DNA of 5,365 nucleotides from Roseburia sp. GTDB lineage: Bacteria > Bacillota > Clostridia > Lachnospirales > Lachnospiraceae. The stretch spans positions 1 to 5,365 of the forward strand of contig JAGAIK010000382.1 of assembly GCA_017626625.1 (NCBI GenBank). The letters are read 5' to 3'. Of the stretch, positions 3,949-5,365 are shown in pieces; position 1 is the first letter of the stretch; every line of letters begins with the position of its first letter. Under the pieces are notes generated by a model that saw only the letters and a program-made list of their open reading frames with translations, was not told where the DNA came from and ran no database searches. The position numbers were made by a program, and so were the translations under genes.

Positions 3949-3977
3949 TGTGCTATAAGTCTGTATTGATAAAAAAA

Positions 3978-3991
3978 TTTTAATATTAAAA
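3978..3991. repeat. AT-only palindrome between the divergent promoters
   Basis: TTTTAATATTAAAA is a perfect 14-base palindrome in the AT-rich centre of the guaB-hisA intergenic region. It lies 30 bases upstream of the guaB -35 box and 41 bases before the hisA -35 box. It could be a regulator site or bending DNA, but AT-rich DNA yields such palindromes by chance. Confidence 0.25.
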
Positions 3992-4032
3992 ATACTAATA
4001 AAAGGATTTGGAAAAGCTTATAAAAATGGTTA

Positions 4033-4061
4033 TTCACAAATGGGTGGATTTGTGTTATGAT
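4033..4061 (+). promoter_or_regulatory. Promoter of the hisA-glnA operon
   Basis: -35 TTCACA (4033-4038), a 17-base spacer, and -10 TATGAT (4056-4061) preceded by TGT, an extended -10. Each hexamer differs from consensus at one position. Transcription should begin about 4066-4068, at the foot of the leader hairpin. The ATG at 4057 lies inside the -10 box and so cannot be the translation start from this promoter. Confidence 0.75.
4035..4054. promoter_or_regulatory. Inverted repeat in the hisA promoter, candidate operator
   Basis: CACAAAT (4035-4041) and ATTTGTG (4048-4054) are perfect 7-base inverted arms separated by 6 bases. They begin in the -35 box and end just before the -10 box. A dimeric repressor bound here would block RNA polymerase. 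The arm order does not match the GlnR pattern (TGTNA-N7-TNACA). The binding protein is unknown. Confidence 0.5.
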
Positions 4062-4067
4062 GACAGC

Positions 4068-4124
4068 GGGCGACGGGGTCCTGACGAGGGGGTACGTCGC
4101 CCATTTTATACCTTTTGGGAGGAC
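4068..4124 (+). promoter_or_regulatory. Structured leader of hisA with possible SD-sequestering pseudoknot
   Basis: A perfect 8-bp stem, GGGCGACG (4068-4075) with CGTCGCCC (4095-4102), closes a 19-base G-rich loop and sits at the predicted 5' end of the mRNA. Within the loop CCT (4080-4082) can pair with AGG (4087-4089). Alternatively GTCCT (4078-4082) pairs perfectly with AGGAC (4120-4124), which contains most of the hisA Shine-Dalgarno. A further loop segment, GGTA (4091-4094), is complementary to TACC (4109-4112), giving H-type pseudoknot geometry. These exclusive pairings would suit translational control. I do not recognise a known riboswitch family; the structure is read by eye. Confidence 0.5.
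4117..4122 (+). promoter_or_regulatory. hisA ribosome binding site
   Basis: GGGAGG lies 6 bases before ATG 4129 and fixes that start over the upstream in-frame ATGs at 4057/4060. Part of it is complementary to the loop of the leader hairpin. Confidence 0.85.
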
Positions 4125-4128
4125 AAAA

Positions 4129-4908
4129 ATGGAATTCAGACCCTGTATCGATATTCATAACGGCAAGGTAAAACAGATTGTGGGGGGGACGTTAAAGGAT
4201 GCCGGCAGTCTGGCAGAAGAAAATTTTGTTTCAGAGCAGGATGCGGCATTTTATGCGAGGCTTTATCAAAAAGAAGGAATCCGGGGCGGTCATATTATTC
4301 TGCTGAACCCGGTGGGAAGCGAATATTACGAAGCCACAAAGCAGCAGGCGTTAGCGGCTTTGGCGGCATATCCGAAGGGACTGCAGGTAGGCGGCGGCAT
4401 TACGGCGGAGAATGCGGCGGAATTTTTAGAAGCGGGAGCAAGCCATGTCATTGTCACCTCCTATGTGTTCCGGGAGGGAAGAATACATTATGAAAACCTG
4501 CATAGGATAAAGCAGGCAGTGGGAAAAGAGCATCTGGTGCTGGATTTAAGCTGCCGGAAGAGAAACGGAGCCTATTACATAGTCACGGACCGCTGGCAGA
4601 AGTTCACGGAGGAGGTCATCCGGGAGGAACTGTTAGAGGAACTGTCGGCATACTGCGATGAATTTTTAATCCATGCGGTGGACGTGGAGGGGAAAGCCTC
4701 CGGCATTGAGGCGGAGTTAGCGGAGTTCCTCGGAAACTGGGGCAAAATTCCCATCACCTATGCCGGCGGCGTGTCAAGCTTTTCGGATTTAGAGCAGTTA
4801 AAGCGCCTTGGGAAAAACAGATTGCATGTAACCATCGGAAGCGCCTTAGATTTATTCGGCGGTTCCATGTCTTATGAAAAAGTGCTAGACTATATCAATA
4901 AGGAGTGA
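4129..4908 (+). CDS. hisA: ProFAR isomerase (HisA), eukaryotic-type subfamily
   Basis: 259 residues. Catalyses the Amadori isomerisation of ProFAR to PRFAR, the fourth step of histidine synthesis, in the cytoplasm. The protein follows the fungal/plant HIS6 pattern rather than the usual bacterial HisA: CIDIHNGKVKQIVGGTL (6-22), ENFVSEQDAAFYARLY (31-46), LQVGGGI (85-91), VIVTSYVF (107-114), VLDLSCRK (137-144), DEFLIHAVDVEG (177-188), YAGGVSS (211-217) and GSALDLFGG (237-245). The acid/base pair is probably Asp8 and Asp139; the GGG/AGG and GSALDLFGG loops bind the two phosphates. ATG 4129 follows a strong Shine-Dalgarno. A 72-base upstream extension in frame is rejected because it covers the -10 box and leader hairpin. 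No other his gene is visible. glnA follows 9 bases later, so the two are likely co-transcribed. The subfamily call relies on recalled similarity to yeast His6; confidence is high for fold and reaction. Confidence 0.92.
   Translation: MEFRPCIDIHNGKVKQIVGGTLKDAGSLAEENFVSEQDAAFYARLYQKEGIRGGHIILLNPVGSEYYEATKQQALAALAAYPKGLQVGGGITAENAAEFLEAGASHVIVTSYVFREGRIHYENLHRIKQAVGKEHLVLDLSCRKRNGAYYIVTDRWQKFTEEVIREELLEELSAYCDEFLIHAVDVEGKASGIEAELAEFLGNWGKIPITYAGGVSSFSDLEQLKRLGKNRLHVTIGSALDLFGGSMSYEKVLDYINKE
4900..4905 (+). promoter_or_regulatory. glnA ribosome binding site within the end of hisA
   Basis: AAGGAG overlaps the last hisA codons, 12 bases before ATG 4918. The spacing is a little long, and termination of hisA at 4908 falls between this site and the glnA start, which suggests translational coupling. 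Confidence 0.65.
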
Positions 4909-4917
4909 TGAGAGAAT

Positions 4918-5365
4918 ATGAGCAAGTACACAAAACAGGATATTATTCGCATGGTGGAGGAAGAGGATGTGGAGTTTATCCGCCTGCAGTTTACGGATAT
5001 GTTCGGCACCTTAAAAAACGTGGCGATTACTTCCAGCCAGTTAGAGAAAGCATTAGACAACAACTGTATGTTTGACGGTTCCTCCATTGAGGGGTTTGTA
5101 AGGATTGAGGAATCGGATATGTATCTGTACCCCGACCTGGATACCTTTGTGATTTTCCCCTGGAGACCCCAGCAGGGAAAGGTGGCAAGAATTATCTGCG
5201 ATATCTACACCGCAGATAAAAAACCTTTTGAAGGAGATCCACGATACATATTAAAAAAGGCTATCGCAGATGCGGCAGATATGGGTTACCGGTTTGAAGT
5301 GGGAACGGAGTGTGAATTTTTCCTGTTTGAGCAGGATGAAAATGGTCAGCCTACCACAGCAACCT
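4918..5365 (+). CDS. glnA: Glutamine synthetase type I, N-terminal third (3' truncated)
   Basis: Makes glutamine from glutamate, ammonia and ATP in the cytoplasm; the family forms dodecamers. Only the first 149 residues are in the window; the frame runs open to the right edge. It begins [27 protein letters not shown] and carries the N-terminal beta-grasp domain with FDGSSIEGF (52-60), [13 protein letters not shown] (61-73), ARIICDIY (90-97) and [13 protein letters not shown] (103-115). It then enters the catalytic domain at GTECEFFLF (129-137), whose Glu residues ligate metal. Arg62 matches the position linked to feedback inhibition in the Firmicutes GSI-alpha enzymes, which lack adenylylation control. 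The usual length is about 440 residues. ATG 4918 is 9 bases after the hisA stop. It probably shares the hisA promoter, since no separate promoter or terminator is seen between them. Confidence 0.96.

Follow-up and report, generated by a model that had tools for sequence, protein, structure and literature searches.

Published ANTAR targets are recognised by a hexaloop with A at position 1 (A1) and G at position 4 (G4), by conserved closing pairs and by overlap with a terminator (PMC3369931 and PMC8934654, in their available portions), and targets overlapping terminators before nitrogen genes have been published (available text of PMC3369931). By current descriptions, ANTAR antitermination requires a pair of hexaloops. 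EutV, from the eut operon of Enterococcus faecalis, needs both hairpins in vivo (PMC3369931, as far as its available text goes), and a structure study of 2022, in the portion available, reports that the ANTAR dimer engages a single hexaloop at any one time, leaving the role of single-hexaloop motifs open (PMC8934654).

The leader upstream of hisA and glnA in a Roseburia sp. genome shares with the EutV/EutW system the hexaloop, its G4, the closing C-G pair and the overlap with the 5′ arm of a terminator (available parts of PMC3369931 and PMC8934654); in relatives of this genome there is also an ANTAR protein that is related in sequence and carries a receiver-like domain. The EutV target, however, contains two hexaloops with a short linker and A1 in each (available text of PMC3369931), whereas here one hexaloop lies near the predicted transcript start and has G1 in the window (the whole stretch of 5,365 nucleotides that was analysed). 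EutV is also activated by phosphorylation, according to the available portions of PMC3369931 and PMC8934654, whereas the proteins linked to the present element have Gly or Ala at the Asp position. AmiR and NasR/NasT, which act on the amiE and nasF leaders, resemble this system in their ANTAR protein, leader terminator and nitrogen-related genes, but their leaders carry two hexaloops instead of one (PMC3369931, in its available text).

NitR of Clostridium acetobutylicum resembles the present case in that a clostridium combines glnA with an antiterminator protein. The available part of PMC4676874 cites the nitR antiterminator and an antisense RNA for the glutamine synthetase of this species, suggests a role like that of nitR for an ANTAR gene of C. 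thermocellum, and does not mention hisA, in contrast to the hisA-glnA arrangement here. The actinobacterial ANTAR-target RNAs were, like the present element, found by a covariance-model search for hexaloop RNAs, but are defined in the available text of PMC8164766 as dual stem-loops, so that a single-hexaloop class would be missed. In the literature searched, from which most subscription papers were excluded, no single-hexaloop ANTAR element with a terminator was described.

The element is set apart from the published dual-hexaloop family, because it lacks the second hairpin and A1 in the window, and looks like a natural single-hexaloop class. It is probable that positions 4068-4108 form a conserved hairpin, predicted to be an intrinsic terminator, with a 5′ arm able to refold into a single hexaloop hairpin (4068-4081); this would likely be bound by an ANTAR protein, the gene of which stands after glnA in related genomes, and binding would allow RNA polymerase to read through into hisA and glnA. 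The features of the leader and operon are as follows.

4033..4061, + strand: promoter-like site TTCACA-17-TATGAT with an extended -10 (10/12 consensus matches)
4068..4102, + strand: terminator-like hairpin, stem 4068-4075 with 4095-4102 (inverted repeat; covariation in 33 leaders)
4068..4081, + strand: hexaloop hairpin GGGC[GACGGG]GTCC, predicted ANTAR target, which excludes the long stem (three inner pairs conserved)
4072..4077, + strand: hexaloop R-A-N-G-R-N (A2 and G4 invariant in 46 elements)
4103..4108, + strand: weak T-tract ATTTTA after the stem (from sequence; T-runs longer in most relatives)
4117..4123, + strand: Shine-Dalgarno GGGAGGA of hisA (read from sequence)
4129..4908, + strand: hisA, eukaryotic-type subfamily (TIGR02129, 328.8 bits against a cut-off of 229.3)
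4918..5364, + strand: glnA, truncated by the contig end (TIGR00653, partial)

Promoter and operon

Eukaryotic-type hisA and glnA (4129-5364) form one operon in the window, divergent from guaB. The hisA-glnA mRNA is predicted to start at about 4066-4068, as the promoter-like site ends at 4061, and the TTCACA..TANNNT pair occurs in 23 of the 33 hisA leaders that carry the element. An earlier note on this DNA, made from sequence alone, had proposed that this mRNA begins with a regulatory leader, which the relatives bear out, as the leader is conserved and structured among them. Between the -35 and -10 of the hisA promoter lies a perfect inverted repeat (CACAAAT-6-ATTTGTG, 4035-4054), which is in part accounted for by the -35 TTCACA and the TGTG before the -10 and is possibly an operator.

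Terminator-like hairpin

The perfect 8-bp stem described in the earlier note is present (4068-4075/4095-4102, 100% complementary, 19 nt between the arms), as are the short strings on which its further pairings were built, namely GTCCT (4078-4082), AGGAC (4120-4124), GGTA (4091-4094), TACC (4109-4112), CCT (4080-4082) and AGG (4087-4089). The fold energy of the window leader is -26.2 kcal/mol against a shuffle mean of -19.6 kcal/mol (z -2.0), a modest single-sequence signal which 11 of 200 shuffles equal.

The HisA protein was searched in 116 genomes and 66 hisA loci were read, the window among them; partial matches lacking the gene start (G001 and G061) were left out, as were matches with E of 1e-9 or weaker, which were taken to be other HisA/HisF proteins. 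The element, comprising a terminator-like stem, a T-run and a refoldable 5′ arm, is found in 33 of the 66 leaders, after one of 34 candidates (L032) was dropped by eye; L001 repeats L002. The selection rule required, besides a hairpin and a T-run, GRNGYY close to the 5′ arm; it partly builds in loop G4 and R5, and the variant GAAC[GACGAA]GTTC at L218 escapes it. The motif occurs in 33/66 hisA leaders as compared with 1.3% of shuffled leaders, and a motif-blind scan finds a terminator in 34/66, of which 30 have the motif in the 5′ arm.

In the 33 leaders, two-sided changes are seen in 7 of 10 pairs of the long stem and 94.2% of 326 cells pair, while only 47-53% of cells pair in the control where the partner is slid by 1-3 columns; the covariation check proposed in the earlier note is thus positive for the stem helix. 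In the RNAalifold consensus a further helix of 2 bp appears above the stem (columns 13-14 with 27-28, 88% of cells paired), here taken to belong to the terminator. The hexaloop hairpin overlaps a predicted intrinsic terminator, as in ANTAR targets, although the T-tract of the window itself is weak. Since a T-run stands behind the stem across the relatives, transcription termination is the likely level of control, and this T-run together with a distance of 20-173 nt from hairpin to start codon among the element leaders fits a terminator and not a Shine-Dalgarno switch.

Alternative hexaloop hairpin

The 5′ arm can form a second, mutually exclusive hairpin, which was examined in 46 aligned elements (33 hisA leaders and 13 elements preceding other genes). 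Its three stem pairs form in 138/138 cells, the window included, and in each of the 46 elements the stem has three or more pairs and the loop six bases. The fourth loop base is G in 46/46, a count partly built in by the selection rule, while loop position 1 is A in 30/46 and G in 16/46; the window has G and so lacks the A1 of published targets. A fourth pair (4068-4081, columns 2-15) was considered and rejected, as it is unpaired in 20/29 rows, and the claim is limited to three pairs.

The middle stem base pairs with different partners in the hexaloop hairpin and the long stem. It is A in 5 elements, in which both partners are then T, and thus selection appears to keep both folds. The energy of the hexaloop hairpin in the window is -4.3 kcal/mol, against -22.7 kcal/mol for the long hairpin; the short hairpin is the weaker one in all of 72 elements (mean -3.6 against -19.8 kcal/mol) and would therefore need help to win over the terminator stem. 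The likeness of the loop bases to an ANTAR hexaloop, combined with the ANTAR gene usually present in the operon, points to a protein as the reader.

One hexaloop or two

Two hexaloops with a short linker, the arrangement of published ANTAR targets, are not found as a general feature of the 72 elements. The motif of the element itself recurs within 45 nt upstream in 1/72 (L049). By the A1/G4 rule an upstream second hexaloop is seen in 7/72 against 4.1 expected, while a looser rule accepting A or G at position 1 gives 13/72 against 6.2 expected, which is above chance. Downstream, the corresponding counts are 12 against 7.6 (A1/G4 rule) and 16 against 12.8 (looser rule).

The element could thus be a classical dual-hexaloop target whose first hairpin has been missed, either because the transcript starts further upstream or because that hairpin is degenerate, as the two motif copies in L049 and the excess under the looser rule would suggest. 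Against this stand the stricter counts given above, and among the 13 looser matches 9 begin at or before the -10, 1 lies after it and 3 have no called promoter. Where a promoter was called (64 elements), the distance from the end of the -10 to the hexaloop stem is 7 nt in 18 and no more than 16 nt in 49, which leaves little room for a first hairpin, and the dual form is accordingly considered improbable. L049 (in G036) is the one clear classical dual form, its hisA leader carrying two hexaloops in tandem, GGAC[AACGGA]GTC followed by GAC[AAAGAA]GTC with the terminator.

ANTAR gene linkage

The search for an ANTAR gene covered 112 relatives. Such a gene lies 1.7-2.2 kb past hisA on the same strand at 31 of 33 element loci and at 12 of 33 loci without the element (p = 1.1e-6, a significance that is overstated, as related loci were treated as independent), and the gene order hisA-glnA-ANTAR is present in relatives, glnA standing between the other two at 18 of the 19 element loci with enough sequence. 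The two element loci lacking an ANTAR gene in the operon are the window and G015. The genome to which the window belongs (81% complete) gave no ANTAR hit; as the contig ends inside glnA, any such gene following glnA would lie beyond it. G015 likewise has the element and no ANTAR hit. At its hisA locus (L148) a dapL-like gene directly follows hisA, and glnA and an ANTAR gene are absent between them, while the leader element is kept. In C. acetobutylicum, nitR adjoins glnA.

Five further hisA loci belong to genomes without an ANTAR hit, three of which are under 90% complete; the element is present in 0/5 and the TTCACA..TANNNT promoter in 5/5. In G071 the ANTAR gene is on another contig, which sets the number of loci with neither an ANTAR hit nor the element at five and leaves the 31/2/12/21 table unchanged. 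At L163, L165 and L166 a second, different type of ANTAR protein is encoded beside other genes, and the hisA leaders of the genomes concerned are without the element.

Where both the element and an ANTAR gene of the operon are absent, glnA tends to be absent after hisA too. As glnA and the ANTAR gene co-occur, the element tracks both, and the association cannot separate them. The terminator or attenuator might then respond to another RNA-binding protein or to nucleotide levels, the ANTAR gene being a mere neighbour whose linkage reflects glnA; G015, and G219 and G349 at the family level, match the model and have no ANTAR hit. A bare terminator, however, has no need of the hexaloop pairing that is kept in 46/46 elements, and the element also precedes other nitrogen genes, as published for ANTAR targets (available text of PMC3369931). 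A reader of another kind is therefore regarded as quite improbable.

A further set of named hisA loci, mostly from Lachnospiraceae and many from Roseburia, was compared. Among the 80 loci listed, 12 have the element and none has it between hisA and glnA; where the listed loci are long enough, an ANTAR gene follows in 10/11 with the element and 23/64 without it, so that 23 of the 33 listed ANTAR loci are without a detectable element. The listed loci that had not been read before comprise 1 with element and ANTAR gene, 21 with the ANTAR gene alone, 35 with neither and 4 that are cut. As the new loci mostly have the ANTAR gene alone or neither, they lend little independent support, and many such operons are without the element.

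ANTAR proteins

The proteins encoded by these genes match EutV, Rv1626, the nitrate regulatory protein and AmiR by sequence, and their profile matches the structures of AmiR and NasR. The phosphoacceptor Asp of the receiver domain is absent, as the position aligned to the EutV Asp is Gly in 15/16 and Ala in 1/16, and the signal is thus probably not phosphorylation. Control of AmiR is exerted by a partner protein rather than through phosphorylation. The ANTAR domain is preceded by 8-12 Lys/Arg within 22-25 residues, and several of the residues with which EutV contacts RNA are replaced. A strongly basic linker (RRRKK and similar) lies near the EutV Lys143/Lys147 positions in L149-L167, and such a linker might strengthen binding to a lone hexaloop.

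Shine-Dalgarno pairing, pseudoknot and ligand

The earlier note had read the leader as a translational riboregulator responding to a small molecule. A conserved leader in the glutamine/nitrogen area is retained from that proposal, while translational control and the small-molecule ligand are not. The perfect 5-nt match by which the loop was thought to sequester the Shine-Dalgarno occurs in 6/33 leaders against 2.8 expected from shuffled loops, and the proposed pseudoknot found no support, its GGTA-TACC helix having been judged by eye.

The Rfam scan suggested in that note gave no match of the window at gathering score in Rfam 15; the one sub-threshold match, at 3967-4113, is to a Tetrahymena snoRNA (29.7 bits against 100). 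In 20 relatives there were three sub-threshold Rfam matches, none of them covering the element. A known Rfam RNA family or riboswitch was therefore rejected, permissive thresholds also having given no family. At L034 (1069-1244, + strand) a sub-threshold match to the Clostridiales-1 RNA (31 against 48 bits) lies about 90 nt from the element on the other strand.

A small ligand-binding riboswitch, acting through termination or translation, would agree with the invariant loop and stem bases and with the lack of an Rfam family at gathering score. Those conserved bases, however, are the bases of an ANTAR hexaloop, the operon holds an ANTAR gene at nearly all element loci, and the Shine-Dalgarno pairing is not generally conserved while the distance to the start codon varies as given above, which makes a riboswitch very unlikely. 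Reading by an ANTAR protein accounts for a leader that could pass as a new riboswitch.

Proposed mechanism

The element most likely functions as ANTAR antiterminator targets do, with an ANTAR protein as its reader. With ample nitrogen, the ANTAR protein would be inactive, the long hairpin would fold and transcription would stop some 40 nt from its start. When nitrogen is limiting, the protein would bind the emerging hexaloop and keep the 5′ arm from the terminator. As the ANTAR gene is inside the operon, this may amount to positive autoregulation. A single hexaloop would suffice, unlike in EutV; if true, one hexaloop would be enough for antitermination in vivo, contrary to the dual-hairpin rule. 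The many examples close to promoters, and the regulator gene linked to them, make the single-hexaloop question directly testable.

Distribution and downstream genes

By covariance model R1 (E <= 0.1), 41 of the 62 genomes searched in the genus have the element; model R2 detects it in 62 of 299 genomes of the family (E <= 0.001) and in 15 of 291 genomes of the class (E <= 0.0005). From the genus, 23 of 33 non-hisA rows were examined, with the motif in 16/23; 14 entered the 72 elements, L103 and L112 being omitted by eye, and 13 entered alignment A2. In the family, 29 loci were examined with the motif in 26 (L170 repeats L013), and in the class 14 loci with the motif in 12. Three further matches in the window's own genome (E 0.1 to 1.1), one of them with the loop motif, were left uncounted.

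An NCBIfam scan was run on 40 of 43 listed downstream proteins (L170, L179 and L208 were left out), and 21/40 are encoded by core nitrogen/glutamine-using genes, a raw share of those scanned. These are gdhA (5), gltB (4, cut by locus ends), urease (3), glnA (2), amt (2) and pyrG (2), together with carA, asnB and one weak partial match to glutamine synthetase. Other downstream genes encode sulfonate-type ABC transporters, xanthine permease, purC and AsnC-like regulators, while a ROK kinase, a MATE transporter, proline iminopeptidase and antiporter-like proteins have no evident nitrogen role. In three other genera (G232, G370 and G383) an ANTAR gene lies about 1.8 kb past the element on the same strand.

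The element could also be a leftover of shared ancestry, namely a plain early terminator without regulation. The hisA leaders are related, so that tests based on independence overstate significance, and many related operons are without the element; the same hexaloop terminator nevertheless recurs in other genera and families ahead of nitrogen genes that are unrelated, and covariation is seen in both alternative pairings, which renders such a relic extremely unlikely. At the family level (299 genomes), an element match occurs in 59/264 genomes with an ANTAR hit and in 3/35 without one (p = 0.07, counted by eye; p = 0.02 when the genome of the window is left out), which is a weak test of the association because ANTAR is nearly ubiquitous there.

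The element offers a candidate nitrogen-control circuit for gut clostridia. The same ANTAR protein may act on the other units that carry the element, such as gdhA, gltB, amt, pyrG and others. The chances are roughly even that a nitrogen-assimilation regulon exists in Clostridia, in which single-hexaloop antiterminators at mRNA starts and within terminators are read by an ANTAR protein of the operon with an unphosphorylatable receiver, whose gate may be glutamine synthetase or PII. At three loci (L098, L100 and L105) the element is found before two units about 2.8 kb apart, one encoding a PucR/AdeR-like regulator and the other a nitrate/taurine-type ABC transporter.
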